36,213 nt of DNA, taken from NCBI GenBank assembly GCA_015488215.1, contig WFOE01000215.1, positions 1 through 36,213 on the forward strand. The letters are read 5' to 3'. Below the pieces are notes generated by a model. That model searched no databases. It saw only the letters and a list, made by a program, of their open reading frames with translations, and had not been told where the DNA came from. This document shows positions 14,607-36,213 of this stretch, piece by piece. Made by a program: the position numbers and the translations under genes. This DNA is from Planctomycetales bacterium (GTDB lineage: Bacteria; Planctomycetota; Planctomycetia; Pirellulales; S012-138). The first letter of the stretch is position 1. Every line of letters starts with the position of its first letter.

Positions 14607-16412
14607 CTACGTTCCGGCAAGCAACCGCACCACGGCTTCGTGCTTGCGGTCCTGGGCTAGATCGCGGGGAGTCATGCCGGCGGAGTCTTTCTGGGTCGGG
14701 TCGGCATTGGCGCGAAGCAATGCCTTGACCACCTCGGCATGCCCGCGGAAAGCGGCCTTGTGTAGCGGGGTCTGGCCGTCGGCATCGCGTGCGTTCGGCT
14801 CGGCTCCGGCTTTCAGAAGCAGCTCCACCGTTTCGGCATGACCGACCCAGGCGGCTTTGTGCAGCGGGCTGCTCTGCCCGGCGGGGAAGTTGACCGTGGC
14901 TCCCGCTTCGAGCAGGGCCCGTGCCGTCCGGGGTTTGCCTTCCCAGGCGGCCACATGCAGCGGGGTGCTCCCGGATTGATCGGCCACGCTGGGGTCGGCT
15001 CCGCGTTTTACAAGCAGTTGCACCAGTTGGGCCGAAAGCGCGTCGTCTTCCGGCGTGGCTGGGCCGGGGGTTCGGGAAGGACTGGGAGCCGGGCCCCCGG
15101 GAACAGGGCGGCGCCGGGGCAGAATCCCGATAGGACGCCCCGGAAACGAAGAGCCCGAACCGTTGCTCGGTTTTCTTGCCGCCGCGGCCAGGTGCAGCAG
15201 GGTGACACCGCCTTCGAAACGCCGATTCACGTCGGCCCCGGCCTGAAGCAGAACCCTGGCCACGTCCAAATGTCCGTGTTGAATCGCCAGATAGAGCGGC
15301 GTGCGTCCCTGGTCGTCGGTCTGGTCCGCGGCGATGCCCTGCTTCAGAGCCAGTTGGGCCACGTTGGTCATTCCTTCGCGGGCGGCCCAGAACAGGATCG
15401 GTTCTCCTTCGGGAGAACGCTCAGGCAAGCGGCCCACTTTGCCGGCAATCAGGTCGATTACCGGGGCGTAGCCCGTCTGGAGAGCCAGCTCCAGCGGGGT
15501 TTTCCCGTCGGGACCTTTGCGGTTCGGGTCGGCCCCGGCTTCCAGGAGCAGGGCAACGACTTTTTCAGGCTTGCGGGAAGTGCTCCACGGGGAGATGGAC
15601 TGTAACGCCCAGGACAGCGGCGTCCGATTCTGCACTGGCCACTCGGCTTTGGCGCCCGCTTCGAGCAACAGCTTGACCGACTCGGCGTTCAACGACTGGC
15701 AGGCGGACACCAGCGGGGTCCACCCGTTTCTGGAGACGTTGGGATCGGCCCCGGCCTCGAGCAACACTTTCAGTACTTCCGGATGATGCACGGCAAAGTG
15801 GACGGGGTAACTGCCGTTCCGGTCCGGGAGGTTGACCTTGGCCCCGGCCTGGATTAACGCCCGGACCGCCGAAACCATTCCCCGGCTGGCGGCCAGGTGC
15901 AAGGCTGTTTGTCCCGAAGCGTTCCTCGCGTTGGGATCGACCCGCTTGAGGAAGTACAACGCGGCCGGTTCGTTGCCGAACATCAAAGCCACCATGAGGG
16001 CGTTGTTTCCGCTCCGGTCCAGATTGTTCAGCGAAGCTCCCGCCTGCACCAGCGCCTGCATGGCCGGCAGATTACGGCGCTGGATAGCCAGCCACAACGG
16101 GGTGCGACCGAACCGATCGCGATGGTTCGCGTTGGCTTTGCGCCGCAGCAGCTCCCGCAGCACGAGCATCTGCGGCGATTCGCCCTGGAAAAGCCGTTGG
16201 ATTGGATTCCGCACCGGTACGGCCGACACTGCGTAAAACAGGGGGGTCTGTCCCCGGCGGTCGGTGGCTTCCAGCAGTTGGGGATTGCGGTCCAGGAGCT
16301 GTTTCACCCGGGTCAGATCTCCCCGCTGGGCGGCGCGATGGATTTCCTGCTGGGCCACCACCACTGCGGACATGGCCAGCCAGAGCCCTACGGCGAAGGA
16401 GAGCTTGTGCAT
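14607..16412 (-). CDS. Secreted ankyrin-repeat protein
   Basis: 601 aa. ATG at 16412 follows GAGGTG at good spacing and opens a Sec signal peptide (MHKLSFAVGLWLAMSAVVVA then QQ), so the protein is periplasmic or extracellular. Essentially the whole mature chain consists of about 14 ankyrin repeats (for example GRTPLWLAIQRRNLPAMQAL, GQTPLHKAAFRGHAEVVKAL). At roughly residues 410-455 the solenoid is interrupted by a Pro/Gly/Ser/Arg-rich linker (RPIGILPRRRPVPGGPAPSP). No catalytic domain is present, so protein binding is the expected role. It could protect against a secreted partner or scaffold an envelope complex, but the neighbours give no hint. It converges on the GT4 gene and lies downstream of argC, about 250 bp away. 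Confidence 0.9.
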   Translation of the reverse strand: MHKLSFAVGLWLAMSAVVVAQQEIHRAAQRGDLTRVKQLLDRNPQLLEATDRRGQTPLFYAVSAVPVRNPIQRLFQGESPQMLVLRELLRRKANANHRDRFGRTPLWLAIQRRNLPAMQALVQAGASLNNLDRSGNNALMVALMFGNEPAALYFLKRVDPNARNASGQTALHLAASRGMVSAVRALIQAGAKVNLPDRNGSYPVHFAVHHPEVLKVLLEAGADPNVSRNGWTPLVSACQSLNAESVKLLLEAGAKAEWPVQNRTPLSWALQSISPWSTSRKPEKVVALLLEAGADPNRKGPDGKTPLELALQTGYAPVIDLIAGKVGRLPERSPEGEPILFWAAREGMTNVAQLALKQGIAADQTDDQGRTPLYLAIQHGHLDVARVLLQAGADVNRRFEGGVTLLHLAAAARKPSNGSGSSFPGRPIGILPRRRPVPGGPAPSPSRTPGPATPEDDALSAQLVQLLVKRGADPSVADQSGSTPLHVAAWEGKPRTARALLEAGATVNFPAGQSSPLHKAAWVGHAETVELLLKAGAEPNARDADGQTPLHKAAFRGHAEVVKALLRANADPTQKDSAGMTPRDLAQDRKHEAVVRLLAGT

Positions 16413-16665
16413 GATGCACCTCGTCATCGGGAAACGCGGAAGCAATGCCGGATTGGGAACCGCTTTGGAGCAGGCGTTCTGCTGCCCATTCTGGACTCGC
16501 AGCCCGGGCGGGGCACGCAATTTTTCTCTTCGTGCGCAGAGCCTCGCCCAAAGGGCAAAACGGCAATAGCCTGCCACCGGTTCGACGCGCCGGGACGGAA
16601 AAAGTTCCCGGGATTTTTTACTCTGGAAATGTCGTTTCGCCGACTGGGGCTTTCGCCGGTGGGGG

Positions 16666-17679: not shown

Positions 17680-18082
17680 GATGGAACCTGTGTCAGCGAT
17701 GCGTAAGTATCTGTGGAACAAGCGATAAGTTCCAGGTGCTACACTTCTCTGGAGGCAGGTCCGTGGTGGGACCTACGGGTCCCAATATACCACCGCCCCG
17801 GGCCACTGGCCACGACCGCAGGAGACGGCGGACCGGAGGCCGGAACCAATTTGACAAAAGGGAGTTGCGCAAAGCGTTGAACCAACCGCCCCCCATCTGG
17901 CACGAACAAAGTGTGCCGGTGGTCCGCTTTGTGCAAAAGCCGCAGCTTCTGCGGTTTCCAAGCGGCTCGGGAACCAAGGCTGGCATTGGCAACCGCCCAG
18001 GTCATCGGCCAAACTGAACAGTTGGTACAACCCTTACGTTTTGCTTCCTTTAGTTTCTTTCCTGCCAGAGGATGCCGAAACG
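17680..18082. other. Divergent intergenic region between argC and the MoxR gene
   Basis: About 403 bp without a supported gene. It must hold the argC promoter and the promoter of the large plus-strand cluster. The only striking element is a perfect 7-bp hairpin at 17767-17784, TGGGACC/GGTCCCA closed by TACG, that is, the very stable C(UACG)G tetraloop form. It has no T tract on either side. Confidence 0.4.
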
Positions 18083-19103
<1,021 letters not shown>

Positions 19104-19132
<29 letters not shown>

Positions 19133-20006
19133 TGAGGCCATCCGCCGCATCTCCCGGCTGGAGTTGCGGGCACGGCACATCGTGGAAGGGTTTCTTTCCG
19201 GGATGCACCGCAGTCCCTACTTCGGGCACTCGGTGGAGTTCGCCCAGCACCGCGAGTACGTGCCAGGGGACGATCTGCGCGACATCGACTGGAAAGTCTG
19301 GGCCAAACAGGACCGGCTCTATATCAAGCAGTACGAAGAAGAAACCAACATGCGCTGCACGCTGTTGGTGGACGTTTCGCGCAGCATGCAGTACGGCAGC
19401 GGCCCGCTGAACAAGTACGAATACGCCTGCACCGCGGCGGTGAGCCTGGCCTACTTGATCCTGCGGCAGCAGGATTCGGTGGGCTGCATCGCTTTCGACA
19501 GCAAGATCCGCACGGCCGTCCCGCCCCGCAGCAAGCGGACGCACTTGATGTCCATCATCAAGGCCCTGGACGGCAGCCGCCCGCAGGAGACGACCGACCT
19601 TTCGACCATCCTGGCCCAGGTGGCCGAAAACCAGCCGCGGCGCGGGATGGTCGTGCTGTTTTCCGACCTGCTGGTCGAGCGGCCGCCGCTTTTGCGAGGG
19701 CTGCGGCTGCTGCGACAACGAGGGCACGACGTGCTAGTGCTGCACGTGATGGACGACGACGAGCTGGACTTCCCCTTCAGCGGCCCCACCCGCTTCGACG
19801 GGCTGGAGGTGCCCGAGCACCTCTCCTGCAACCCCCGGGCCCTGCGGGAAGGATACCTGGAAGCCCTGAACGCCTACCTGGAGGAAATCCGCCGCGGCTG
19901 CGCCGGACACACGATTGACTACGCCCTGGTCCGCACCAGCCAGCCGCTGGATGCGGCCCTGGCCCATTTCCTGAGCAACCGCTTGGGAATGCATCACCGG
20001 AATTGA
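19104..20006 (+). CDS. DUF58 domain protein with vWA MIDAS motif
   Basis: 300 aa, ATG at 19104, overlapping the end of the MoxR gene by about 30 nt. The DUF58 signature [18 protein letters not shown] is at about 51-68. It is followed by a vWA fold with the MIDAS pattern D-x-S-x-S at Asp90-Ser94 ([12 protein letters not shown]), the threonine in [10 protein letters not shown] and the aspartate in [10 protein letters not shown]. There is no transmembrane segment, unlike many DUF58 proteins, so it should be cytoplasmic and available to MoxR. The MoxR-DUF58 pair is conserved across bacteria and is linked to envelope stress, aerotolerance (Bat) and metal-cofactor insertion in different lineages. 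Which applies here is unknown. Confidence 0.94.
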
Positions 20007-20446: not shown

Positions 20447-22630
20447 ATGGAACAGTTTTTCATCCATCCCGGGCTGGCTTCGCTGGGAGCCCTGCTGGTG
20501 GGCGTGCCGGTGTTGATCCACCTGATCAACCTGATGCGCCACCGCCGGGTCGAGTGGGCGGCCATGGAGTTCCTGCTGGCGGCCTACAAGAAGAGCCGCA
20601 CCTGGGTCATTCTGAAGCAGCTTTTGCTGCTGCTGTTGCGGATGCTGGCCGTGGCCGCCGTGGCCCTGATCGTGGCCCAGCCGCTGCTTCAGGCCGACCG
20701 CTGGTTTCTGCTGGGCGGGCAGACGACGCACCACATCGTGCTGCTGGACGACAGCTTTTCCACCTCGGACCGGCACGGCGACCGCCAGGCGATGGACCTG
20801 GGCAAGGACGTGGTGCTGCGGCTGGCTCGCCGGGCGGTGGAAGCCCGCAGCCCGCAAAAGTTCACCCTTGTCCGCTTTTCCCGCCCTCGGCAGCCGGAAC
20901 TCAACGCCGCGTTGGTGGACTCGCAGTTCGAAGCCCGGCTGGTTTCGGAGTTGAACCGCATTACCCCGTCGCAGACCGACGCCGGCCCGCTGGCCGCCTT
21001 GCAAGGGCTGGATCAGTTGCTGGACGATTCCAGCGAAAAGCGCGTGGTGTACCTGGTTTCCGACTTCCGGCAGCGGCAGTGGCAGGAACCCAAGGCGCTG
21101 GACCGGCGTTTGCAGCAGCTTCGGGACCAGGGGCTGGAGGTCCACCTGATCCAGTGCGTGGACCAGCAGCACGAAAACCTGGCCATCGTGCGGCTGGAGC
21201 CGGCCTCGGGCATCCGGGCGGCCGGCGTGCCCGTGACCATGGAAGTAACCGTGCACAACTACGGCACCAGCGTGGCCCGCGAAGTGGCCGTCACCCTCCG
21301 CGAAGACGGCAAGGAACGGCCCGGGGTGGTCATTCGTTCCATCGGTCCCGGACAAGCCGAAACGCGACGTTTTACGGTCCAGTTTGCCACGGCCGGACAG
21401 CACTTCGTTACCGCCCAACTGGCCACCGACGCGGTGGAGGCGGACAACGTGCGTTACTGCGTGCTGGACCTGCCGGTGTCGGTGCCGGTGCTCATCTGCG
21501 ACGGCGACCCGGCGGCCACCGACGGCCGGTTTCTCTCCCTGGCCCTGGCTCCTAGCAACCGGGTGCGGTCGGGGATTTCGCCCCGGGTAGAGCTGCCCCG
21601 GTTCTTGAATAACCACCCGTTGGAAAACTTTCAGGGCATCTATCTGACTAACTTTTCCACGCTGGACCAGGTGGCCATCGAGAACCTGGAACGCTACGTC
21701 CGCGGCGGCGGAGGGCTGGCCGTTTTTATGGGCGAGGAGGTTCGCGCCCAGTTCGTCAACGAGCATCTGTATCGGGACGGCCAGGGGCTGTTCCCCGTGC
21801 CGCTGGTCACCCCGGTGGACTTGATTCCCGACCCGCTGAACGAAAAACCGGACGTGGAGCCGGACACTTCGCATCCGGTGTTCCGTATCTTCGAGTACCT
21901 GCGCAACGATTTCCTCAAGGCGCTGCGCGTATATCGTTACTTCGCCGTGCCGCAGGACTGGCAGGCCACCAGCGAGCATCCGGTCCGCGTGGTGGCCCGG
22001 CTGCGCAACGGAGCCCCCCTGGTGCTGGAACACCGCTTCGGCCGCGGGCGGGTGATCGTCTTCCTGACCAGCGTGGCCCCGGTGTGGAACAACTGGGTGG
22101 GCAATCCCAGCTTTCTGGTTTCCATGCAGGAACTGCAATCGTACCTGGCCCGCTGGAGCGATCCGGGGCTGCAAGTGGGCCAGCCACTGGTGCTGCGCGT
22201 GCCGGCGGCCCAGTACGCCGCCCAGGCCACGCTGCGGCGACTGGAAAACCAACCACTGAGCGTGCCGCTGCAAGGCGTACTGAAGGACGAAACGCTCACC
22301 TTCCGCTGGGACGATACGTCGCTGGCCGGCGTCTATCGCTGGGAACTGCAACCGGCCCAGGGCGAACCGGAACACCACGCCTACGCGGTGAACGTCAACC
22401 CGGAAGAAGGCGACCTGGCCTACTTCAGCCCGGACCAGCTCGACTCCCGGCTGGAAGCCGACGTGCGAATCATGAATGCAGCGGCTGTTAGCGACCTGGC
22501 TTCGAACCAGGCCCGCAGCAGCGTCAGCGAATACCTGCTTTATGCCCTGATTGTGTTGTTGCTTGGCGAACAACTGCTGGCCTATTCGGCCAGTTATCAT
22601 CCTCCTTCGCTCAAGGGGGTGCGTGCATGA
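20447..22630 (+). CDS. BatA-type membrane protein with vWA domain and C-terminal membrane anchor
   Basis: 727 aa. The N-terminus MEQFFIHPGLASLGALLVGV with PVLIHLINLMRHRRVEW matches the BatA/aerotolerance N-domain: a membrane hairpin of two segments at about 10-30 and 56-82. A vWA domain follows with MIDAS Asp101-x-Ser-x-Ser (LLDDSFST), QTDAGPLAAL and VYLVSDFRQR. Residues about 240-330 form a CARDB-like beta domain (VEVTVHNYGTSVAREVAVTL-like pattern). A class I glutamine-amidotransferase-like fold follows (YVRGGGGLAVFMGEEV), and a last membrane segment lies near 700-715 (YLLYALIVLLLGEQLLAY). The amidotransferase-like part lacks an evident catalytic triad. The gene's ATGA end overlaps the next gene. 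Confidence 0.9.
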   Translation: MEQFFIHPGLASLGALLVGVPVLIHLINLMRHRRVEWAAMEFLLAAYKKSRTWVILKQLLLLLLRMLAVAAVALIVAQPLLQADRWFLLGGQTTHHIVLLDDSFSTSDRHGDRQAMDLGKDVVLRLARRAVEARSPQKFTLVRFSRPRQPELNAALVDSQFEARLVSELNRITPSQTDAGPLAALQGLDQLLDDSSEKRVVYLVSDFRQRQWQEPKALDRRLQQLRDQGLEVHLIQCVDQQHENLAIVRLEPASGIRAAGVPVTMEVTVHNYGTSVAREVAVTLREDGKERPGVVIRSIGPGQAETRRFTVQFATAGQHFVTAQLATDAVEADNVRYCVLDLPVSVPVLICDGDPAATDGRFLSLALAPSNRVRSGISPRVELPRFLNNHPLENFQGIYLTNFSTLDQVAIENLERYVRGGGGLAVFMGEEVRAQFVNEHLYRDGQGLFPVPLVTPVDLIPDPLNEKPDVEPDTSHPVFRIFEYLRNDFLKALRVYRYFAVPQDWQATSEHPVRVVARLRNGAPLVLEHRFGRGRVIVFLTSVAPVWNNWVGNPSFLVSMQELQSYLARWSDPGLQVGQPLVLRVPAAQYAAQATLRRLENQPLSVPLQGVLKDETLTFRWDDTSLAGVYRWELQPAQGEPEHHAYAVNVNPEEGDLAYFSPDQLDSRLEADVRIMNAAAVSDLASNQARSSVSEYLLYALIVLLLGEQLLAYSASYHPPSLKGVRA

Positions 22631-25101
22631 CGTGGTGGGAACATCCCCCGCTGGCCCAGGCCACGGCGGCCGTGGAGTCGGCCCCGCAGCTCACCTTCGA
22701 GCTGGGGCGGCTGCTCTCCTTCGGGCCGTGGCAGTGGGTGTTGCTGGTGGGGGTAATCGTGCTGGTGGCCGCGGTGGTCATCACCCTGTATCGCCGCGAT
22801 ACGGTCGAGCTGGGCCGCGGCGTGGCGCTGCTGCTGGTTTCGCTGCGGCTGGCCGCGCTGCTGGGCCTGCTGTGGATTTACCTGCTGCCGCAGTACCGCG
22901 TGGAACGCGAACAGGTCATCCCTTCGCGCGTGCTGCTGCTAGTGGATACGAGCCAAAGCGCCACGCTGGCCGACGTGCCCGGCCCCGACGGCGAACCGAT
23001 GCGCCGCATCGACGCGGCCGTGCATCTGCTGCGGGACACGCCGCTGGTGGAAAAGCTGCGCCAGGTGCATCGCGTAACCGTGCTGAAGTACGACGCCAAG
23101 GCCGAAACCGTGGCCGACCTGCCGCCTTACTACGCACAGAAAGGCTCCCGCCCGGGCACCTCGGCCAAAGACGGCCCCGAGCAGCAGGAACCCGCCCCGG
23201 ACTGGGCCCGGCTGCTTGCCGCCCAGGGGCGCCAGTCGCGGCTGTGCGGCGTGCTGCGCGAAGTGCTCACCGCCCATCACCAGGACCCCCTGGCCGGCGT
23301 GGTGATTCTGACCGACGGGCAGAACAACACCGGCGAAGGGCCGGACGCCGCGGTGGCTCTGGCCAAAGAGAACCGCGTTCCCCTCTGGCCCGTGGGACTG
23401 GGTTCCAACCAGCCGGAACGCTCGCTCCAGGTGGCCGATTTCCTGGTGCCGGCTCGGGCCTATCGGGGCGATGCCTACAAGGTGACCGGCTACGTGCGCG
23501 GCTTCGGCCTGGGTAACGCCCCGGTGCTGGTCGAACTGTTGCAGCGTCCAGCAAGCGCCGCCCGGGAAGCGGCCGACGTGGTCGATTCGCAGCAGCTCAC
23601 GCTTCCGGCCGACGGGGAGATCGTCCCAGTGCAGTTCGAGCAAAGCGCCGGCTCGCTCGACGAAGAAGACGAACCGGCCGGCGACGCTTCGGAGCAGTTG
23701 TTGCTGACGCTGCGCGTGCGCACGCTAAGTGGAAAACCGCTCCAGGCCGAAAAGGAGAAGATGATCGAGATCGTGGACTACAAGACCCGGGTGCTCCTGC
23801 TGGCCGGAGGGCCGACGCGCGAGTACCGCTTCGTGCGCAACCAGCTCAAACGCGACCCTTCGATGGTGGTCCACGTGGTGTTGCAAACCGCCCAGGAAGG
23901 AGTTTCCCAGGACGCCGACGAGCTGCTGGACGACTTCCCTTCGCTGAAGCAGGAGCTTTACGACTACGACTGCATCGTGGCTTTCGACTTCAACTGGCGC
24001 GAGCTGAGCCAGCAGCAGATCGAAATGCTCCAGGACTGGGTGGCCGAGGAGGCCGGCGGGCTGGTGGTGGTGGCCGGTCCGGTCTATATGGACACCTGGG
24101 TGCGTTCCCAAACCCCGGCCATGACCAGGCTCCGCGGCATGGTGCCAGTGCTGTTCCAGCAGCACTTTGCCGCGGTGGAAGACGACCGCTTCCAGCGGAA
24201 GGAACCAGCCCGGCTGGTGTTTACTCCCGAAGGGCTGACTGCTCCCTTTTTGCAACTGGCCGACACGCCCGAGGAAAGCCGCATGGTGTGGGAAACCTTC
24301 GAAGGCGTGTACGGCTACTATCGGGTCAAAGGCCCCAAGCCCGCGGCCACCGTCTTTGCCCGCTTCGACGATCCCACCAGCACCGAGGAAGAAACGGTCT
24401 ATCTGGCCGGGCACTTTTACGGTTCGGGCCGGGTGTTCTACCTGGGCAGCGGCGAGATGTGGCGGCTGCGCAGCCAGGGAGCCGGCTACTTCGAGGCTTT
24501 CTGGACCAAGCTGATTCGCCACGTTTCCCAGGGGCGGCTGCTCCGGGGGTCCAAACGCGGCGTGCTGCTGGTGCAACAGGACACCTACCAGGTGGGCCAG
24601 ACCGTGGCCGTTCAGGCCCAACTGAAAAACGCCCAACTGGAACCGCTCGAACTGACCCAGGTAACGCTGGAGATCGTCCGCCCGGACCAGAAACTGCAAA
24701 CCCTCACCCTGGCCGCGAAAGCCGACCGGCCGGGAACCTACGCCGGGCAGTTCAGCGTCTATTTGGAAGGGAACTACCAGCTCCGGCTCCCCGTGCCCGA
24801 AAGCGACGAGGTGCTCACCTGGAGCATCGAAGCGGTGATGCCGGACGTGGAAAAACAAAACGCCCAGCGCAACGACGCCCTGCTGGAACAACTGGCCAGC
24901 CAGACCGGCGGTACCTACCTGGACCGCTGGCAAAAGGTGCTGGAACCCGAACCCCTGTGGCAGAAACTCCCCGACCGGCGGCGGACGATTATCCTCCGCG
25001 GCACCCCGCAAACCCTGTGGGACAACCAGTGGACGCTGCTTGTGATTTGCGGGCTGCTGTTCGCGGAGTGGTTAATCCGCCGGCTGAGCAAACTGGCCTG
25101 A
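22627..25101 (+). CDS. Large membrane vWA protein, second copy of the BatA-like architecture
   Basis: 824 aa, ATG at 22627 overlapping the previous stop (ATGA), so translationally coupled. Two membrane segments lie at about 36-56 and 65-88. A vWA domain with MIDAS Asp107-x-Ser-x-Ser (LLLVDTSQSATLAD) and a later VVILTDGQNNTGEG follows. A beta domain comes next, then an amidotransferase-like fold (YDCIVAFDFNWRELSQQQIE, EEAGGLVVVAGPVYMDTWVR), a second beta domain with QVGQTVAVQAQLKN, and a C-terminal membrane helix (WTLLVICGLLFAEWLIRRL). The layout parallels the 727-aa neighbour, suggesting an ancient duplication into a heteromeric pair. Orientation: the vWA and amidotransferase-like parts lie between the N- and C-terminal anchors. 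Confidence 0.9.
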   Translation: MTWWEHPPLAQATAAVESAPQLTFELGRLLSFGPWQWVLLVGVIVLVAAVVITLYRRDTVELGRGVALLLVSLRLAALLGLLWIYLLPQYRVEREQVIPSRVLLLVDTSQSATLADVPGPDGEPMRRIDAAVHLLRDTPLVEKLRQVHRVTVLKYDAKAETVADLPPYYAQKGSRPGTSAKDGPEQQEPAPDWARLLAAQGRQSRLCGVLREVLTAHHQDPLAGVVILTDGQNNTGEGPDAAVALAKENRVPLWPVGLGSNQPERSLQVADFLVPARAYRGDAYKVTGYVRGFGLGNAPVLVELLQRPASAAREAADVVDSQQLTLPADGEIVPVQFEQSAGSLDEEDEPAGDASEQLLLTLRVRTLSGKPLQAEKEKMIEIVDYKTRVLLLAGGPTREYRFVRNQLKRDPSMVVHVVLQTAQEGVSQDADELLDDFPSLKQELYDYDCIVAFDFNWRELSQQQIEMLQDWVAEEAGGLVVVAGPVYMDTWVRSQTPAMTRLRGMVPVLFQQHFAAVEDDRFQRKEPARLVFTPEGLTAPFLQLADTPEESRMVWETFEGVYGYYRVKGPKPAATVFARFDDPTSTEEETVYLAGHFYGSGRVFYLGSGEMWRLRSQGAGYFEAFWTKLIRHVSQGRLLRGSKRGVLLVQQDTYQVGQTVAVQAQLKNAQLEPLELTQVTLEIVRPDQKLQTLTLAAKADRPGTYAGQFSVYLEGNYQLRLPVPESDEVLTWSIEAVMPDVEKQNAQRNDALLEQLASQTGGTYLDRWQKVLEPEPLWQKLPDRRRTIILRGTPQTLWDNQWTLLVICGLLFAEWLIRRLSKLA

Positions 25102-25141
25102 GGGCCCGCCGGAAGAGTTCCCCTTGCGTCAAGACCACACG

Positions 25142-27445
25142 ATGACCCCCAACAGCCAACCTGCGGTTCGTCCCGAGGTGCTCAAGGCGCTGCGTCGCCT
25201 GCGGGGCAAGATACGCCGGTACGTCTTTCTCCAGGGCGTGTTCGTCCTGCTGGCCTGGTTGGGGCTGGTGTTCTGGGTTTCGCTCGCCCTGGACTGGCTG
25301 CCCGTGGCCATGGGCCACGACGAACCGGGCCACGGCGCCCGGGTGGTGTTGCTCGGGCTTTACGCCCTGCTGACCCTGGGCGTTACCTTCTGGTACCTGT
25401 TGCGGCGACTGTTTGTGCGATTGCCGGATCGGGCCATGGCCGTGCTGCTGGAACGGCGGTTTCAGGACTTTCACGATAGCCTGATTACCACCGTCGAGCT
25501 GGGCCAGGAACCGGAACACGCTCAGGCGTTTGATCCCCGGCTGCTGGACCACACGTTCCAGGAAGCCGCCCAGCGGGCAAGCCGTGTGCCCTTGGGCGAA
25601 GTGTTCCGCCTTCGGCCGCTAGTAAAAGCCCTGGTGCTGGCCCTGGTGGCCGTGGTGTCGGTCGGTTCGTTCGCCCTGGCGGCTCCGGAGGCGTTTCGCA
25701 TCTGGATGCGCCGCACCTTGCTGCTGCAAGACCTGCGCTGGCCGCGGCGACACCACATCGAAGTGGAAGGTCCCCGGGTACGCAAAGTGGCCCGCGGCGA
25801 CGACGTGACGGTGCTCGTGCGGGCCGACACGCGCAAGCGCGTCCCTCGCACCGTGCGGCTGGAGTACCAGTTCGCCGACGGCACCTGGGGCGAAGAAAAC
25901 ATGACCCGCGAAGGCGTCCCCCAGGACGGCTACCAGCTTTTCAGCTACACGTTCCGCGACCTGGCCCAAAGCGTCCGGTTCGACGCGGTGGGCGGCGACC
26001 ATCGCGTGCGGGACTACCGGTTGCTGGTGGTTGATAGCCCCACGGCCGAGCTGGCCCTGCACTGCGTGTTTCCCGATTACATGGTCGATGCGGAACACGG
26101 GCTTTATACCCCTCGCACGCTGCCGGTCAGCGGGGTGATGGAACTGCCCCAGGGGACGCGGATCACCGTATTGGGCCGCGCCAACAAACCGCTGGAAGCC
26201 GCCTGGGCCAAGCTGCCCGCGACCGAAAAAAACGCCGCCGCCGAGCGGCCGCTGGAACTGACCGGCCCGCGCCAGTTCCAGTTGGAACTGCCCCCGCTGG
26301 AACAGGACATGGTAATCCAGTTCCGCTTGCTGGACCGCGACGGTATCCGCAACAAACAGCCGGTCCGGCTGGCTCTGGTGGCCGTGCCGGATCAGCCGCC
26401 GGAGGTGAACATCCGCCTGCTGGGCATCGGCACGGCCGTTACTCCCGATGTTCGTATTCCCTTGGCCGGGGAAATCAGGGACGATTACGGCGTGGCCAGC
26501 GTGCATTGGTCTTACCGCATCGATGAGCAAGAGGAGGTCAAGCTCCCTCTGCTGGCCGAAGCGGGTCGCCGCACCGAGATTGCCTGGAACGAACAAGACC
26601 CGCCGGTGCTGGACTTCCGCGCCTTGCGGCAACAAGCCCTGGAACGCTTCCGCCAAAGCCGGAAAGGCTCCTCGCAAGACGAAAACAGCCCCCCGGACCA
26701 GAAAGCCCTGGATGCGGCTCTGGCCCCCTACCGGTTAGTGCCGGGCCAGAAACTGGTGCTGACCGTCACTGCTAGCGACGCTTGCACGCTGGAAGGCGGG
26801 CCGCACTCGGCCCAGGGCCAGCGCTACCTGCTGGACGTGGTTACGCCGGAGGAACTGCGGGCCATCCTGGGGGCCCAGGAGCTGAACTTGCGGCGGCGGC
26901 TGGAACAAATCCTGGAAGAAGTGCGCGAAACGCAGGATTCGCTGCTGCGGGTGCGTTTCGACTCCGAGCAAGAGAATAAGAGCCCCAACGACCCGCTGGA
27001 AGTGGCCTCCTTGCGCGTCCAACGGGCACGGCAAAACAGCGAGAAAAACGCCAACGAAGTGCTGGGCGTGGCCGTCGGCTTCGACGACATCCGCCAGCAG
27101 TTCGTCAATAACCGCATGTACAACAAGGAGGTGGACGAACGTATCCGGGGGCGGATTGCCGAGCCGCTGCGGGAAGTGGCCACGGCCATGTTCCCCGAGC
27201 TGGACCGGCTGCTGAAACAGTTGCAGGAAAACCTTACCCAGCCCGAACGACGCGACGCACTGCTGGAAAAAAGCCAGAACCACCTGGCCGAGATTATCCT
27301 CCGGCTGGAAAACGTGTTACAAAATATGCTGGAATTGGAAAGCTTCGAGGAAGCGATTCAACTAATCCGCGAGATTATCCAAGAGCAGAAAGAGATCGCC
27401 GAAAAGACCAAAAAATACCGCATCAAGCGATTGTTGAACCCTTGA
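25142..27445 (+). CDS. Membrane-anchored protein with beta domains and C-terminal coiled coil
   Basis: About 767 aa from ATG 25142; a TTG at 25124 with a nearby GGAAGAG is an alternative start. Three membrane segments lie in the first 180 residues: VFLQGVFVLLAWLGLVFWVS, VVLLGLYALLTLGVTFWYLL and LVKALVLALVAVVSVGSFAL. A long periplasmic part rich in beta strands follows, including LHCVFPDYMVDAEHGLYTPR and the repeated RDDYGVASVHWSYRID pattern. The last 180 residues form an extended coiled coil ending in a Lys/Arg-rich tail. Topology and general composition resemble the DUF4175-type proteins that accompany MoxR/BatA loci, but I would not insist on that family. No enzymatic motif is visible. A structural or force-transmitting role at the inner membrane is inferred. 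Confidence 0.87.
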   Translation: MTPNSQPAVRPEVLKALRRLRGKIRRYVFLQGVFVLLAWLGLVFWVSLALDWLPVAMGHDEPGHGARVVLLGLYALLTLGVTFWYLLRRLFVRLPDRAMAVLLERRFQDFHDSLITTVELGQEPEHAQAFDPRLLDHTFQEAAQRASRVPLGEVFRLRPLVKALVLALVAVVSVGSFALAAPEAFRIWMRRTLLLQDLRWPRRHHIEVEGPRVRKVARGDDVTVLVRADTRKRVPRTVRLEYQFADGTWGEENMTREGVPQDGYQLFSYTFRDLAQSVRFDAVGGDHRVRDYRLLVVDSPTAELALHCVFPDYMVDAEHGLYTPRTLPVSGVMELPQGTRITVLGRANKPLEAAWAKLPATEKNAAAERPLELTGPRQFQLELPPLEQDMVIQFRLLDRDGIRNKQPVRLALVAVPDQPPEVNIRLLGIGTAVTPDVRIPLAGEIRDDYGVASVHWSYRIDEQEEVKLPLLAEAGRRTEIAWNEQDPPVLDFRALRQQALERFRQSRKGSSQDENSPPDQKALDAALAPYRLVPGQKLVLTVTASDACTLEGGPHSAQGQRYLLDVVTPEELRAILGAQELNLRRRLEQILEEVRETQDSLLRVRFDSEQENKSPNDPLEVASLRVQRARQNSEKNANEVLGVAVGFDDIRQQFVNNRMYNKEVDERIRGRIAEPLREVATAMFPELDRLLKQLQENLTQPERRDALLEKSQNHLAEIILRLENVLQNMLELESFEEAIQLIREIIQEQKEIAEKTKKYRIKRLLNP

Positions 27446-27528: not shown

Positions 27529-29442
27529 ATGTTCGCCCGAGTTCGCCTGCTGCCGCTGGCGGCCCTGCTGGGCCTGATGTTCTTCTCCCAAGCGCTGGTG
27601 GCCCAGGAACCCCAAGGGGAGCAGGAGCCCGCCTCGGTCGACGAGTTGGGCAAACAGATTCACCAGCACCAGCAACGCGTCGAGGCCAAATATCGCCGCT
27701 TCCGCGAAGTGCTGCTGCGGATGGCCCAGTACCTGGCCGACAAGGACCCGGTTCGAGCCGAGCTGCTCCGCAAGGCAATCCGGGAAAGCAGCGAGCGGGA
27801 CATCGAAGGCAAGTTCCGCCGCATCCTGGAAGCCCTGGAAAAAGAACGCCTGGCCACGGCCGTCAACCAGCAGGGCGAACTGGTTACCGATTTGAACCAA
27901 CTGCTGGAGCTGCTCATGAGCGAGCAGCGGTCCAAACGCCTGGCCAGCGAAAAGGCCCGGATCAAGCAGTACATCAAGGACGTCAAGCGCCTCATCCGCC
28001 AGGAAAAGAACCTGGAAGACCGCACCCATCGGGGCGAAGACACCAAGCGCCTGGCTAAACAGCAAGGCAACATCGCCGACCAGGCCAAGCGCCTGGCCGA
28101 CCGTATTGCGCGGAACGAAGGGGCCGCCGGCCAGAACGGCTCGCAAGGCGCCCAGGGCAGCCAGGGGGCAGACGGCGCCCAGGGCAAACAGGGCCAACAA
28201 GGACAAAACAACTCCGGTAAAGATGCCCAGGGCAAGGACGTCCAAGGGAAAGACTCCCAAGGCAAGAACGACCAGGGCAAGAACGGCCAACAGGGTGGAA
28301 AAGACGGCCAACAGGGGGGCAAACAAGGAGGCAAGGACGGCCAACAAGGCGGCCAACAAAACGGCAACCAGAGCGGCAAGGACGGACAGCAGAACAGCAA
28401 AGACGGCCAGCAAGGGGGTAAAAACGGCAACCAAAGCAACAACCAAGGGGGCAAAGGGGATCAGCAAGGGGGTAAACAAGACGGGCAACAAGGGGGTAAG
28501 CAAGGCGGACAGCAGGGAGGCCAACAGGGCGGCCAGCAAGGGGGTCAACAAGGCGGGCAGCAGGACGGAAACCAAAACGGACAGCAGGGCGGCCAACAGC
28601 AGGAAGACAATCCCTTTGGCGACATCCACAAGAAGATTCGCCAGGCCGAGGAGCGGATGCGCCAGGCCCAAAAGCGCCTGGAAGAAGCCAAGCGCAAGGG
28701 GGCCCTGGAAGAAGAACGCAAGGCGACCGAAATCCTGGAGCAGATTCGCCGCGAGCTGGAACGGCTGCTGCGCCAACTGCGCGAAGAGGAGCTGGCCCGG
28801 GTGCTCGCCGCTCTGGAAGCTCGCTTCAAGCGCATGCTGCGGATGCAGGTGGAAGTGTACGAGGGCACGCTGCGACTGGATCTGGTGCCCAAGGAGCGCC
28901 GCGGCCGCAATGAGGAGATTCAGGCCGGCCGGCTCAGTCGCAGGGAATCGCTGATTGTGCTGGAAGCGGACAAGGCCATGCAACTGCTGCGCGAAGACGG
29001 CACCTCGGTGGCCATGGCCGAAGCCCTGCGGCAGGTGCGCGAAGACATGCGGCAAGTGACCATCCGCCTGGCCCAGCAGAAGGTGGGCCAGATTACCCAG
29101 GGCATCGAGGAGGACATCATCGCCGCGCTGGAAGAGATGATCGAAGCGGTGCAGAAGGCCCAGGAGGAACTGGAGCAGAAGCAACAACAGCAGTCCAAGC
29201 CTTCCTCGGGCCGTCCGATGGAACCGCCGCTGATCGACATGCTGGCCGAATTGAAGATGCTCCGTTCGATGGAGATTCGCGTGCGGAAGCGCACCGCACG
29301 GTATCAGAAGCTCATCGGCGAGCAAGATGCCATCGGCCAGGCCACCGAAGCGGACCTGGTGGAAGCCTTGCAGCGCCTGGCCCAGCGCCAGCAGCGGATT
29401 ACCAAAGCCGCCCGGGACATCGTCCTGGGCCGAAATCGTTGA
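27529..29442 (+). CDS. Secreted coiled-coil protein with long G/Q/K/N-rich repeat linker
   Basis: 637 aa. ATG at 27529 has GGGAGG about 8 nt upstream and opens a Sec signal peptide (MFARVRLLPLAALLGLMFFS). Residues about 30-195 are charged coiled coil. Residues about 197-361 are a low-complexity linker built of short G-Q, G-K-D-G-Q-Q and GGQQ units with almost no hydrophobic residue and no proline. Residues about 362-637 return to coiled coil, with a central part (LRMQVEVYEGTLRLDLVPKE) that may be a small folded insert. The layout is two helical rods joined by a long, polar, flexible tether. Such tethers span periplasmic distances or wrap partners. No family can be named. Confidence 0.87.
   Translation: MFARVRLLPLAALLGLMFFSQALVAQEPQGEQEPASVDELGKQIHQHQQRVEAKYRRFREVLLRMAQYLADKDPVRAELLRKAIRESSERDIEGKFRRILEALEKERLATAVNQQGELVTDLNQLLELLMSEQRSKRLASEKARIKQYIKDVKRLIRQEKNLEDRTHRGEDTKRLAKQQGNIADQAKRLADRIARNEGAAGQNGSQGAQGSQGADGAQGKQGQQGQNNSGKDAQGKDVQGKDSQGKNDQGKNGQQGGKDGQQGGKQGGKDGQQGGQQNGNQSGKDGQQNSKDGQQGGKNGNQSNNQGGKGDQQGGKQDGQQGGKQGGQQGGQQGGQQGGQQGGQQDGNQNGQQGGQQQEDNPFGDIHKKIRQAEERMRQAQKRLEEAKRKGALEEERKATEILEQIRRELERLLRQLREEELARVLAALEARFKRMLRMQVEVYEGTLRLDLVPKERRGRNEEIQAGRLSRRESLIVLEADKAMQLLREDGTSVAMAEALRQVREDMRQVTIRLAQQKVGQITQGIEEDIIAALEEMIEAVQKAQEELEQKQQQQSKPSSGRPMEPPLIDMLAELKMLRSMEIRVRKRTARYQKLIGEQDAIGQATEADLVEALQRLAQRQQRITKAARDIVLGRNR
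28113..28605 (+). repeat. In-frame low-complexity repeat encoding the G/Q/K/N linker
   Basis: About 165 codons of short, imperfect repeats. The later part (about 28497-28560) consists of near-identical 12-nt units encoding GGQQ, and the earlier part has GKDxQ and GKN units. The synonymous variation between units (caa/cag, ggc/ggg/gga) shows that it is maintained as protein and is not a recent expansion throughout. It is a likely hot spot for length variation between strains. Confidence 0.8.
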
Positions 29443-29521: not shown

Positions 29522-30562
29522 ATGCGCGCTGGTGTGCTCATCGCCGCCTCGCTGGTTGCCGTCTTGAGCCTGGCCTTCGGACCGGCCCTCCCGGCGGCGG
29601 AAGACGCCGAGCAGGTTCGCTTCACTCCGCCTTCGGCCGAGTCGGTCCAGCAGCAGTTGCAAGCCTTTCTGGAACAAGCCGGCCTTACGGACCAGCAGCT
29701 CAAACAACTGGCCCCCCTGTGGCAAAAGCTGAAGAAGGCTTCCGCCCCGCCGGAGCGGCTCAAAACGGCCGTGGAGCTGCTGGCTCGAACCGATCCCCGG
29801 TTCGCCCAACTGGCGGCCCGCTGTGCCAGACCCTGGCGGGCGGAGAAGCTGCCCCAGTGGAAATGGCTCGAAGACGACACGCTGCCTCCGTTCGTGCAGC
29901 ACAACCTGCGGCTCTACTATGCCCGCTGGCTGGCCTTGCAACAGTTGTACGACGAAGCGCTGGAGCAGTTCCGCCACATCGACCCGGAACAGGTGATCGA
30001 TCCGGCCGGGTACTTTTTTTACCTGGCCGTGGCCCATCACGGACTGGCCCACAAGAAGGAAGGCTTGCAGGCTCTGGACGCCCTGCTGGCCGAAGTGGAC
30101 CGGCTGCCGCGGCGTTACCGCACGCTGGGCGAACTGATGCGCGAAGACCTGCGGCGGATGCGGGAAGGTTCGCTGGACCAGGTGGCCCGCTGGATGCGCG
30201 ACGTGGAGCGTCGCTTGCAACTGGCCCGAGCCGGCCGCCGGGTCATCAAACGCGAAGACGACATCATCGACGCGTTGGACAAGATGATCGAGGAACTGGA
30301 AAAGCAACAACAACAGCAGCAACAACAGCAACAAGGGGGTGGGCAGCGGCAGTCCAGCAGTCCGGCCCAGGATTCGGCCATTCTGGGCGGTTCCGGGCCC
30401 GGCAAGGTGGACCCGAAGAACATCGGCAACTCGGCCGGTTGGGGCAACCTGCCGCCCAAGAAACGGGAAGAAGCCTTGCAGGAGATAGGCAAGAACTTCC
30501 CGGCCCATTACCGCGAACTAATCGAAGAATACTTCCGCCGCGTAGCGGAACAGGAGAAGTAG
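29522..30562 (+). CDS. Secreted TPR-like helical protein with poly-glutamine tract
   Basis: 346 aa. The signal peptide is MRAGVLIAASLVAVLSLAFG ending PALPAAED. The mature part is all-helical, with TPR-like pairs (LRLYYARWLALQQLYDEALE, AGYFFYLAVAHHGLAHKKEG). A coiled coil follows at about 205-260 (RVIKREDDIIDALDKMIEEL), then ten consecutive glutamines (nt about 30305-30334, mixed CAA/CAG) and a Gly/Ser-rich stretch. The C-terminus carries PKKREEALQEIGKNFPAHYR and ELIEEYFRRVAEQEK, a short motif I have seen at the ends of other planctomycete proteins of this cluster type. No catalytic residues are evident. Its stop lies only 8 nt before the next gene, so the two are co-transcribed. Confidence 0.87.
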   Translation: MRAGVLIAASLVAVLSLAFGPALPAAEDAEQVRFTPPSAESVQQQLQAFLEQAGLTDQQLKQLAPLWQKLKKASAPPERLKTAVELLARTDPRFAQLAARCARPWRAEKLPQWKWLEDDTLPPFVQHNLRLYYARWLALQQLYDEALEQFRHIDPEQVIDPAGYFFYLAVAHHGLAHKKEGLQALDALLAEVDRLPRRYRTLGELMREDLRRMREGSLDQVARWMRDVERRLQLARAGRRVIKREDDIIDALDKMIEELEKQQQQQQQQQQGGGQRQSSSPAQDSAILGGSGPGKVDPKNIGNSAGWGNLPPKKREEALQEIGKNFPAHYRELIEEYFRRVAEQEK

Positions 30563-30569
30563 GCTCCCG

Positions 30570-31805
30570 ATGACCGTACCGTTGCTCGGTTCGTTCCTGG
30601 CGCTTTTGCTGGCCGCAGGAGGTCCTGCGGTCAAGGTGCTTACTTTGGACGAACAGTCCCACCAAGGAAAGCTGGCCGCCTGGCAGCGCGAGGCGGTGGT
30701 GTTGCAACTGGAAGGACAAACGCGGCGCGTGCCGCTGGACCAGGTGCTGGAGCTGGTGCCCCAGCAGCCGCCTGAGACGGACGAAACGGCCGCGGCGACG
30801 CTTCTGCTTCATGACGGCACCCAGCTCCCTGCCGCCGGGCTGAGCTACGACGGCAAACAGCTCCGCTTCAAGCTCTGGGACAAGGACCTGGCCGTGCCGG
30901 TGGCCCAGGTGGCTTCCTGGATGCGGCGCAAGCCCACCGCGGAACAGGAAAAGCAGTGGCGGGAGATTCTTGCCGAGAAGCCCCAGGGCGATCTGCTGGT
31001 GACGGCCAAGGGGGATTCGCTGGATTACTTCGAAGGCGTGGTACGCAAGATTACTCCCCAGGCCGTGCACTTCGAGCTGGAAGGGACCCAGGTGCCGGTG
31101 AAGCTCCAGCGCGTCTTCGCCGTGGTGTTCTATCGTCCCAACGTGCCGGAAACTCCCGAGCCGAAGGCCGTGTTCTACGCGGTCGGAGGGGCTCGCGTGC
31201 CGGCAGCGGCAATCGCCTGGGACGATGGTGTGTTCCGGCTGACCACGCCCGGGGGGCTGGAACTGGCGCTGCCGGAGGACCGATGGCAGCGGGTCGATTT
31301 CTCCCTGGGCAAGATTGCCTACCTGGACCAGTTGGAACCGGAAGAAGAAACGGTGCAGCCCCGGCCCCTGACCAACTTCTCCACTCGCAAGGAACAACTC
31401 CGCCTGGCCCTGGAAGAAGACCGTCTGCTGCGGCGGGTGCGTCGCGGGCGGTGGAGCCCATCGCGCCCGTTGAAGCTCGACGGGCGAAGCTACCAGCGCG
31501 GGCTGGGTCTGCGGGCCGGCACTCGGGTGGCGTTCCGCCTGGCCGGCCGCTACAGCCGCTTGCAGGCGGTTGTCGGCGTGGACGACCAGGTGCAGGCTTC
31601 CCAAGGACCGGTGCTGCTGACCATTCGCGGCGACGACAAAGTGCTGGCGCAGGTGAAGCTCTCCGCAGCGGATCGCCCCCGTGGGCACCCGCTGGAACTG
31701 GACATCTCCGGCGTGCATAAGCTGACCATCGAAGTGCACCACCCGCCGGGAGCCTTCCTGGGCGACGACTTTGTAGACCTGTGCCGGATTCGTGTGCTCA
31801 AGTGA
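30570..31805 (+). CDS. Secreted protein with C-terminal NPCBM domain
   Basis: 411 aa. ATG at 30570 has GGAGAAG about 11 nt upstream, inside the previous gene's end. The signal peptide is MTVPLLGSFLALLLAAGGPA. Residues about 20-260 are three to four small beta repeats of the pattern 'V-L-L-D-G-x-x-L-P...V', where loops such as TLLLHDGTQLPAAGLSYDGK recur. Residues about 275-411 match an NPCBM (novel putative carbohydrate-binding module) domain: YQRGLGLRAGTRVAFRLAGR, YSRLQAVVGVDDQVQ, GDDFVDLCRIRVLK. NPCBM domains bind glycans in secreted glycosidases, but here no glycosidase domain is attached. A role in anchoring the complex to a cell-surface polysaccharide is inferred. Confidence 0.87.
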   Translation: MTVPLLGSFLALLLAAGGPAVKVLTLDEQSHQGKLAAWQREAVVLQLEGQTRRVPLDQVLELVPQQPPETDETAAATLLLHDGTQLPAAGLSYDGKQLRFKLWDKDLAVPVAQVASWMRRKPTAEQEKQWREILAEKPQGDLLVTAKGDSLDYFEGVVRKITPQAVHFELEGTQVPVKLQRVFAVVFYRPNVPETPEPKAVFYAVGGARVPAAAIAWDDGVFRLTTPGGLELALPEDRWQRVDFSLGKIAYLDQLEPEEETVQPRPLTNFSTRKEQLRLALEEDRLLRRVRRGRWSPSRPLKLDGRSYQRGLGLRAGTRVAFRLAGRYSRLQAVVGVDDQVQASQGPVLLTIRGDDKVLAQVKLSAADRPRGHPLELDISGVHKLTIEVHHPPGAFLGDDFVDLCRIRVLK

Positions 31806-31828: not shown

Positions 31829-33580
<1,752 letters not shown>

Positions 33581-33615: not shown

Positions 33616-34641
33616 ATGAAACGCGTTGCTCTCCTTGCCCTCGGCTTGTTTGCCACCGCGGTGCCGCTGGCAGTCCCCGGCCGCTTGCCGGCCCAGGAGC
33701 CGCTTACGGACCTGGTGGCCCGCTGCCATCCCAAGGTGGTCAAAATCTACGGAGCCGGCGGCTTTCGCGGCCTGGAACACTACCAGAGCGGCATCTTGAT
33801 TTCGCCCCAGGGCCACGTGCTCACCGCCTGGAGCTACGTGCTGGACACCGACCATCTGGTGGTCCACCTGGCCGACGGCCGACGCCTGGAGGCGAAGCTG
33901 CTGGGGGCCGATCCCCGGCTGGAGATGGCCGTGCTGAAGCTGGATGGGAATGACTTCCCCTACTTCCCGCTGGAACGGGTTCGCCTGGAGCCGGGAGCCA
34001 AAGTGCTGGCGCTGAGCAACCTGTACGGCGTGGCGGTGTTCGACGAGCCGGTGAGCGTCCAGCACGGCGTGGTGGCCGCCCGGGTGCCGCTGCGGGCCCG
34101 CCGGGGCGCGTTCGAAACCCCCTACCGCGGGCCGGTGTACATTCTGGATGCCATCGTCAACAACCCTGGAGCGGCCGGAGGGGCGATTGTCGATCGCCAG
34201 GGCCGTCTGGTGGGAATGATTGGCAAAGAGCTGCGCAACACGCTGACCAACACCTGGATCAACTACGCCATTCCCATCGACCAGTTGATTGGCACCATCG
34301 AGCAGATAAAGCAGGGCAAGTTCGTCCCTCGCACCGAGGAAGCGGAGCAACAGGCCCGCAAGCCCCAGGACCCGGTTACGCTTGAGCGGCTGGGCATCGT
34401 GCTGGTGCCCGACGTGCTGCCCAAGACGCCCCCGTTCGTGGAAGAAGTGCGGCCCGGCTCGCCGGCTGACCGGGCGGGACTGCTGCCGGACGATTTAATC
34501 CTGTTCGTCAACGACCGCCATCTGGTCCAGTCGTGCGAAGCGCTGCGCAAGGAACTGAGCTACATTCCCTGGGGCGACCCGGTCCGCTTGACCATCATCC
34601 GCGGCCAGGAGCTGCGCGAGCTGGAACTCAAGACGCGCTAA
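33616..34641 (+). CDS. HtrA-like pseudoprotease with PDZ domain (triad lost)
   Basis: 341 aa from ATG at 33616, with a signal peptide (MKRVALLALGLFATAVPLAV, then GRLPAQ). It has the S1C fold: SGILISPQGHVLTAWSYVLD, ADPRLEMAVLKLD, VNNPGAAGGAIVDRQGRLVG. All three catalytic positions are changed relative to the upstream paralog. His is Tyr74 or Ser73 depending on the alignment, Asp is Glu103, and Ser is Ala187. A PDZ domain follows (EEVRPGSPADRAGLLPDDLI). It should bind peptides but not cleave them. It begins 36 nt after the active protease gene and probably regulates or delivers substrate to it. The alignment of secondary structure is otherwise good, so this is loss of catalysis, not a different family. 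Confidence 0.9.
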   Translation: MKRVALLALGLFATAVPLAVPGRLPAQEPLTDLVARCHPKVVKIYGAGGFRGLEHYQSGILISPQGHVLTAWSYVLDTDHLVVHLADGRRLEAKLLGADPRLEMAVLKLDGNDFPYFPLERVRLEPGAKVLALSNLYGVAVFDEPVSVQHGVVAARVPLRARRGAFETPYRGPVYILDAIVNNPGAAGGAIVDRQGRLVGMIGKELRNTLTNTWINYAIPIDQLIGTIEQIKQGKFVPRTEEAEQQARKPQDPVTLERLGIVLVPDVLPKTPPFVEEVRPGSPADRAGLLPDDLILFVNDRHLVQSCEALRKELSYIPWGDPVRLTIIRGQELRELELKTR

Positions 34642-34684
34642 TCCCGCCCTGGTCCACGCCCTCGCACCCAAGAGGTAACTGTCA

Positions 34685-36213
34685 GTGAAACAAAACGTGC
34701 TTCGGCAACCAAGCGCGCTGGCCGTCGTGCTGGTGGGGATGCTTGCCGGAAGGCTTGCCGCCCAGGACCTGACCGCACTGGAAGAACAAGCCGTGCGCCA
34801 GGCGGCCGCCCGCGTGGCCCCCAGCGTGGTGGCCATCGAAACAATCGGCGGCCTGGAACGAGCCGGGCGCGTGCTGCTTGGTTCCGGTCCCGGCACCGGG
34901 CTGGTCGTTTCTTCGGACGGCTACATCGTCTCCAGCTTGTTCCACTTCCTGCAAAAACCGGCGACGATTCTGGTGCGATTGCACGACGGCACCCGGCTGC
35001 CGGCCCGTCGCGTGGCCACTGACTATTCGCGGATGCTGGTGCTGCTGAAGGTGGAACCGAAAAAACCCCTGCCCGTCCCGCAGATGGTCCCCGAGGCCGA
35101 AGTGCAAGTGGGCATGTGGGCCGTGGCCCTGGGACGTTCGTTCCCCGAAGCGCCCGTAACCATCTCCGTAGGGATTGTCAGTGCCAAGGGGCGCATCTGG
35201 CGCCGCGCGTTGCAGACGGATGCCAAGGTCTCGCCGCTGAACTACGGCGGCCCGCTGGTGGACATCCGCGGCCGGGTGCTGGGCGTGCTGGTTCCCTTGT
35301 CCCCGCGCGGCTCGGACCAGGTGGCCGGAGTGAAGTGGTACGACTCGGGCATCGGCTTTGCCGTCCCGGCCGACCAGGTGATGGCGGCGGTCGAGCGGAT
35401 GAAAGAGGGCCGGGACCTCCGCCCGGGCCTGCTGGGCGTGGCCCTGCGGCGAGGGCACCAGTTTGCCGATCCGGCCGTGGTGGCTTCGGTCCGGCCTAAC
35501 TCGCCGGCCTACAAAGCCGGCATCCAACCGGGCGACCGGATTGTGAAAGTCGGCCAGGTGGAAGTGACCCGCCAGGTGCAATTGCGCGAAGCCCTCGGCC
35601 CGCTCTACGCCGGGGACGAAGTGACCATCGAAGTGCTGCGCAAGGGAAAACGGCTCCGCTTTTCGGTAACGCTGGTGGATAAACTCCTCCCCTACCAGCG
35701 ACCGCAGTTGGGCGTGCTGCCGCTGGCCGAAGTGGCCGCTCCGGACCAGAAAAAACCCTCCGGCGTGGCGGTCCGCTGGGTGATTCCCGACTCGGCGGCC
35801 CAGCAAGCGGGAATCCAGGTGGGCGACCGGATTGTTCGGGCCGCGGGCCAGAGGGTGGCCGACGCCGACACGCTGAGACAACTGGTCTGGAACGCCGAGG
35901 TGGGCCAGAAGCTCCCGCTGCAAGTCGAGCGGAATGGCAAGACGCTCTCGCTGGAAGTAACGCTCACTCCCCTTTGGGAAGGCGTGCCCCGGCAGGAGCT
36001 TCCCGAGCGCACTACCGGCCGGTTGCCTGCGCCCGGCCAGGCTCCGCCCCGGGGAGAGCAAACCTTCAAACTGCCGCAGTTCCCTCACGAAGCGCTGCTC
36101 TACGTGCCCGAGGACTACCATCCGGCCCTTCCCCACGCCCTGCTGGTGTGGTTCCACGACGCGGCCGGCTTGGACGAACAAGCCGCCAAGGACCTGCTGG
36201 ACCAGTGGAAAAA
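34685..36213 (+). CDS. HtrA-like pseudoprotease with two PDZ domains fused to a hydrolase-like domain (3' end outside window)
   Basis: At least 509 aa from GTG at 34685 (AAGAGGT upstream), continuing past the window end. The signal peptide is LAVVLVGMLAGRLAAQ. In the S1C-like domain His87 is kept (GYIVSSLFHFLQ), but the Asp position is Met117 (TDYSRMLVLLKV) and the Ser position is Tyr187 (KVSPLNYGGPLVDIRGRVLG), so proteolysis is not expected. PDZ1 is at about 265-345 (VRPNSPAYKAGIQPGDRIVK) and PDZ2 at about 355-430 (VIPDSAAQQAGIQVGDRIVR). After a Pro-rich linker, from about residue 460 the chain reads LLYVPEDYHPALPHALLVWF, then HDAAG, which is the oxyanion-hole start of an alpha/beta-hydrolase (esterase-like) domain. 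A protease-like domain has apparently become the sensor part of a new enzyme. Confidence 0.88.
   Translation, partial: MKQNVLRQPSALAVVLVGMLAGRLAAQDLTALEEQAVRQAAARVAPSVVAIETIGGLERAGRVLLGSGPGTGLVVSSDGYIVSSLFHFLQKPATILVRLHDGTRLPARRVATDYSRMLVLLKVEPKKPLPVPQMVPEAEVQVGMWAVALGRSFPEAPVTISVGIVSAKGRIWRRALQTDAKVSPLNYGGPLVDIRGRVLGVLVPLSPRGSDQVAGVKWYDSGIGFAVPADQVMAAVERMKEGRDLRPGLLGVALRRGHQFADPAVVASVRPNSPAYKAGIQPGDRIVKVGQVEVTRQVQLREALGPLYAGDEVTIEVLRKGKRLRFSVTLVDKLLPYQRPQLGVLPLAEVAAPDQKKPSGVAVRWVIPDSAAQQAGIQVGDRIVRAAGQRVADADTLRQLVWNAEVGQKLPLQVERNGKTLSLEVTLTPLWEGVPRQELPERTTGRLPAPGQAPPRGEQTFKLPQFPHEALLYVPEDYHPALPHALLVWFHDAAGLDEQAAKDLLDQWK

Follow-up and report, generated by a model that had tools for sequence, protein, structure and literature searches.

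Pairings of a live protease with a dead one have hitherto been known from a few specialised systems, and serine-protease homologues without activity are in themselves not uncommon (42 of 966 in one survey, PMC2605481). The closest parallels to the locus described here are MamE/MamO and CspBA/CspC. MamO is a dead relative of HtrA that is required for proteolysis by MamE, and its active conformation is disfavoured by features that include the loss of the glycine at position 193; the MamE/MamO pairing is magnetosome-specific and has evolved independently several times (PMC4794232). Clostridioides difficile produces the protease CspB as a fusion with one pseudoprotease, CspA, and has another, CspC; according to the published description, neither the fusion nor the pseudoprotease state occurs beyond C. 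difficile and its family (PMC6636752). Here we describe three adjacent planctomycete genes, one encoding an active HtrA-like protease (H1) and two encoding HtrA-like pseudoproteases (H2 and H3), a trio of which we found no published description in the mainly open-access literature searched.

Organization of the locus

The window (the whole 36,213-nt stretch of DNA analysed) is a single contig, C215, of a 4.3-Mb genome. Its last three genes, H1, H2 and H3, are co-directional and separated by gaps of 35 and 43 bases. The features discussed below are as follows, with residues numbered from the gene starts used in this analysis.

18041-19135, + strand: MoxR-type AAA ATPase, head of the probable operon (AAA_3, 215.6 bits; seen in this window)
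19104-20006, + strand: DUF58 protein, head of the probable operon (DUF58, 180 bits; seen in this window)
20447-22630, + strand: BatA-domain/VWA protein, operon partner (BatA, 47.4 bits; partly seen in relatives)
22627-25101, + strand: g22, 824-aa membrane protein, operon partner (weak MG2 match only; order conserved)
25139-27445 (start uncertain), + strand: large membrane protein matching no Pfam family, operon partner (order conserved)
27529-29442, + strand: g27, Gln/Gly/Lys-rich protein, operon partner (order conserved)
29522-30562, + strand: g29, conserved secreted protein, operon partner (order conserved)
30570-31805, + strand: NPCBM-domain secreted protein, directly upstream of H1 (NPCBM, 65.9 bits; order conserved)
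31829-33580, + strand: H1, secreted active HtrA-like S1C protease (583 aa; Trypsin_2, 109 bits)
32054-32056, + strand: H1 His76 codon, catalytic (from alignment)
32147-32149, + strand: H1 Asp107 codon, catalytic (from alignment)
32393-32395, + strand: H1 Ser189 codon, nucleophile, in NPGNSGGP (from alignment)
33616-34641, + strand: H2, secreted HtrA-like pseudoprotease with signal peptide, S1 domain and one PDZ (341 aa)
33835-33837, + strand: H2 Tyr74, at the catalytic His position (from alignment)
33922-33924, + strand: H2 Glu103, at the catalytic Asp position (from alignment)
34174-34176, + strand: H2 Ala187, at the nucleophile position, in NNPGAAGG (from alignment)
34685-36213, + strand: H3, secreted pseudoprotease of the HtrA type carrying two PDZ, incomplete at the contig end (domains from Pfam)
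34943-34945, + strand: H3 His87, at the catalytic His position (unusual, most relatives having Asn here)
35033-35035, + strand: H3 Met117, at the catalytic Asp position (from alignment)
35243-35245, + strand: H3 Tyr187, at the nucleophile position, in SPxNYGGPLVD (from alignment)
36056-36213, + strand: start of the H3 C-terminal alpha/beta-hydrolase-like domain (boundary approximate)

All three proteins start with a signal-peptide-like stretch (judged by eye), which in H1 is followed by an S1 domain, a PDZ and a further C-terminal region. Each carries a chymotrypsin-like S1 domain of the HtrA S1C type scoring above the Trypsin_2 cut-off (72.6 bits in H2, 76 bits in H3). There is one PDZ in H2 (PDZ_6, 38.3 bits) and two in H3 (both PDZ_2 stretches); the PDZ of H1 is weak, at 24.2 bits against the Pfam cut-off of 27. 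AlphaFold2 models of H2 (from 79 sequences, mean pLDDT 87.6) and of H3 (from 68 sequences, mean pLDDT 92.1, the modelled chain being a relative in locus L102) find their best Foldseek matches in DegQ, DegP and DegS. Whole-chain TM-scores are moderate (0.5 for H2) and the rmsd is large, probably because the domains of the models are oriented differently. The retention of fold and PDZ domains proposed in a preliminary description of this DNA, made from the sequence alone, is thus upheld, as is its reading of intact frames with normal codon use: the open reading frames of H1, H2 and H3 are uninterrupted over the coordinates that it too had given, and GC3 is 0.84 in H2 and 0.81 in H3 against 0.80-0.84 in adjacent genes.

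The remainder of H3 lies at the start of another contig of the same genome, C154, which overlaps the window end (window 36056-36213 and L201:1-611) and has a hisA-like gene after the end of H3. In relatives full-length H3 has about 650 aa and usually the alpha/beta-hydrolase-like C-terminal domain, which is absent from a minority of H3 proteins. The preliminary description could not see this domain.

The presence of MoxR, DUF58 and BatA genes together, as in Bat-type aerotolerance operons, is seen in this window only; the gene order conserved in Pirellulales starts at BatA or g22. Within the operon, g27 (27529-29442) includes an extended low-complexity region, rich in Gln, Gly and Lys, in which near-repeats are numerous. 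The window also encodes a 656-aa ankyrin-repeat protein on the minus strand (14607-16577; Ank_2, 325 bits).

Active-site residues, age and selection

Residues were counted among about 160 deduplicated relatives per family, from which near-copies were not fully removed. The H1 triad is invariant (His in 157/157, Asp in 157/157 and Ser in 159/159 aligned rows), giving H1 the HtrA/S1C triad that H2 and H3 lack; these two are non-peptidase homologues. At the catalytic His position of H2, Tyr is found in 101 of 169 rows, His in 27 and other residues in 41, and at the Asp position Glu is found in 117, Asp in 22 and others in 30 of 169. The nucleophile position is Ala in 128 of 168 rows and Ser in only two, and no row among the 168-169 aligned has the full H-D-S triad. 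The H2 substitutions vary by lineage (Ala, Gln, Pro, Tyr). Both Ser rows come from second-copy operons (L096 and L098) and have Ile and Gln at the other triad sites. Such second, divergent copies of the operon occur in some Pirellulales (L096, L098 and L097, in genomes G029, G012 and G049), and in two of them the H2 copy has a GASGG motif with Ser at the nucleophile position, without the His and Asp.

H3 has diverged in its own way. Its catalytic His position is Asn in 112 of about 162 rows, including both nearest relatives, and His in just three, so that His87, as judged from these relatives, is a quirk of this genome. Met occupies the Asp position in 89 of about 162 rows, and Asp in none. 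The nucleophile position is Tyr in 160 of the 161 rows that reach it, the exception being Val in L069; two rows that seemed to have His are fragments ending short of the site. The two families also differ at the oxyanion-loop glycine (position 193), which in H2 is Gly185 and is kept in 168 of 168 rows, and which is lost in H3 (Gly in 2 of about 161).

The H3 C-terminal domain lacks the GxSxG nucleophile elbow of PHB-depolymerase-type esterases. None of the 67 rows reaching the site has Ser there, the residues being Gln (31), Glu (17), Gly (8), Arg (5), Asp (4) and others; in this genome the elbow (on G000:C154) reads GYDTGG, with Asp, compared with GHSMGG in a solved esterase. From its residues H3 looks dead twice over, in both the S1 and the esterase-like domains. 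Another trypsin-like protein of the same genome (L010, G000:C211:11234-11563) has no recognisable triad in the tree alignment, and is possibly a further pseudoprotease.

In a tree of S1 domains built without the active-site columns each family forms one clade, with support of 99/99 for H1, 100/98 for H2 and a moderate 86/87 for H3, and the clades include Pirellulales as well as other families of its class and planctomycetes further removed. Read most simply, the tree places the loss of catalysis in H2 and H3 before the split of these planctomycete lineages. Against the nearest relative, dN/dS is 0.10 (NG86) or 0.04 (YN00) for H2, 0.19 or 0.06 for H3 and 0.16 or 0.09 for H1; more distant pairs were compared by NG86 only, with dS near saturation. 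These values indicate purifying selection of similar strength on the live and the dead members. The losses in H2 and H3 go beyond chance, the substitutions being kept across many planctomycete lineages.

The active-site residues proposed in the preliminary description (His76/Asp107/Ser189 in H1, Glu103/Ala187 in H2 and His87/Met117/Tyr187 in H3) all hold in the alignment, and the choice it left of Tyr or Ser at the His site of H2 falls on Tyr74, Ser73 being the neighbouring residue. In the graded loss of catalysis that it described, H3 is not a half-active stage, since His87 is shared by so few rows. We rejected a half-active H3 acting through His87: Asn takes its place in the nearest relatives, and H3 has lost the Asp and the Ser as well. 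Sequencing or frame error was likewise rejected, as the substitutions are common to orthologs. The conservation of the substituted residues that it looked for in homologs is found in the H3 Tyr and the H2 Ala, which are not random, and no replacement catalytic site stands out in the conservation of H2 or H3; a migrated catalytic residue is accordingly without support there. With conserved substitutions, ancient clades and low dN/dS, H2 and H3 are, as it had proposed, maintained pseudoenzymes and not products of decay. Partnership with the active protease, which it also suggested, gains indirect support from co-inheritance, synteny and H1-H2 fusions, described below.

Inheritance of the trio and proposed roles

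Among 149 genomes sampled evenly from the class, the three genes are all present in 108 and all absent from 40; G070 is the one exception, with H2 alone, so that 148 of 149 are concordant. Most absences fall in one family (f21), and independent losses are few, perhaps five. In four trio-less genomes of that family g22 matches are at paralog level only and NPCBM matches are weak; the trio was thus seemingly lost with its operon. The order H1-H2-H3 on one strand is found in nearly all of 80 named loci, preceded by the same upstream genes where the contig allows, and recurs in most of 58 relatives and in other planctomycete lineages. Two single-contig genomes (G075 and G176) have the three genes far apart and retain them all. 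A search for fusions among H1, H2 and H3 gave four in-frame H1-H2 open reading frames without a second signal peptide (L097, L180, L187 and L200). In G070, H2 lies directly after the NPCBM gene in the operon (L221:4732-5796) and H1 and H3 are not detectable in that genome, showing that H2 can persist without the other two. A database record labelled Candidatus Nealsonbacteria (L111, JABMRB010000139.1) carries the planctomycete trio, with 56% identity to H2, and is probably a mislabelled or contaminated MAG.

We somewhat favour the reading that H2 and H3 are ancient maintained pseudoproteases acting as non-catalytic partners of H1 in the periplasm. H1 would be the sole cutter. H2, which retains the oxyanion-loop glycine and adjoins H1, would most likely bind H1 directly and gate or allosterically activate it; H3, with its pair of PDZ domains, a Tyr at the nucleophile position and an esterase-like domain that is itself dead, would most likely recruit or sense a substrate or ligand. 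MamE/MamO and CspBA/CspC are precedents for such a partnership. Activation is preferred over inhibition by analogy with MamO only, which MamE-dependent proteolysis needs. We infer the physical complex, the direction of regulation, the periplasmic site and the link to the MoxR/Bat-type operon products. A bolder version is offered tentatively, as one we would sooner doubt than adopt: H1, H2 and H3 may form one obligate hetero-oligomeric periplasmic protease that arose early in the history of Planctomycetota; its two dead HtrA subunits, of which one includes a second dead enzyme, would sense ligands and gate the sole active subunit for the MoxR/Bat-type machine.

Against partnership with H1 it can be said that H3 is tied to H1 by co-inheritance and neighbourhood only, that G070 keeps H2 in the operon without detectable H1 or H3, and that other operon genes are co-inherited too, so that the real partner of H2 and H3 could be among those. 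In a rather unlikely alternative, H2 and H3 are maintained pseudoenzymes that work independently of H1, using their PDZ domains to bind peptides or serving as a scaffold on which the operon's MoxR/Bat-type membrane proteins assemble. Its best argument is again the G070 operon, and it agrees with the conservation of the whole neighbourhood (DUF, g27, g29, NPCBM) alongside H2 and H3 and with the trio-less genomes, where g22 matches are at paralog level only and NPCBM matches are weak. H2 is, however, fused to H1 in the four cases above (H1, H2 and H3 being the only genes tested for fusion), and the trio is retained even where its genes are scattered.

Two further explanations carry much less weight with us. 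It is very improbable that H2 and H3 remain enzymes in which the active site has moved and a different Ser or His provides catalysis. H2 does have candidate residues, namely Ser73, which adjoins the His site and is conserved in 78 of 79 rows, His67, which is 91% conserved in the Pirellulales set and sits in the turn before the strand leading to the His site, and the oxyanion-loop glycine; yet the nucleophile positions lack Ser, no His of the H3 S1 domain is more than 50% conserved, the position-193 glycine of H3 is gone, and the H2 residues differ among lineages in a way not tolerable in an active site. Hardly credible is the notion that H2 and H3 are degenerating, functionless gene copies, as the missing catalytic residues might suggest, for the frames are intact across many planctomycete lineages, dN/dS is low, the H3 replacement residue is nearly invariant and the three clades are ancient. 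The evolutionary signals point to dead members that work with live H1, as in the favoured partner reading.

Comparison with known systems

H2 and H3 resemble DegP, DegQ and DegS (HtrA, S1C) in fold and S1-PDZ architecture and differ from them in lacking the catalytic triad; against the Do-family model they score 110 and 217 bits, far under its cut-off of 416. Domain searches alone label all three members of the trio trypsin-like peptidases, and routine annotation could therefore miss the pseudoproteases.

The likeness to MamE/MamO lies in an active HtrA beside a trypsin-fold pseudoprotease with a degenerate triad in one gene cluster, and, for H3, in the shared loss of the position-193 glycine. 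MamO differs in having a TauE-like domain, which a Pfam domain search did not find in H2 or H3, and a metal-binding di-histidine. Membership of H2 and H3 in the MamO family was rejected on the NCBIfam MamO model, whose cut-off of 800 bits lies far above their scores of 42.8 and 33.6. With CspB, CspA and CspC the trio shares one live protease with two pseudoproteases and the occurrence of live-dead fusions, but the Csp proteins have the subtilisin (S8) fold, act in spore germination and lack PDZ domains, while H2 and H3 have the S1 fold. By the tests made, H2 and H3 belong to neither the MamO nor the CspA/CspC family.

The host bacteria have a poorly understood envelope, and the natural series of split, adjacent, fused, scattered and lost genes offers a test of pseudoenzyme control over proteases. 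The trio is a real, well conserved and apparently undescribed form of live-dead protease pairing, an old trait with two different dead members. Unlike MamE/MamO, it combines two dead proteins, retained PDZ domains and a dead esterase-like domain, and it has been kept across many lineages of a phylum.
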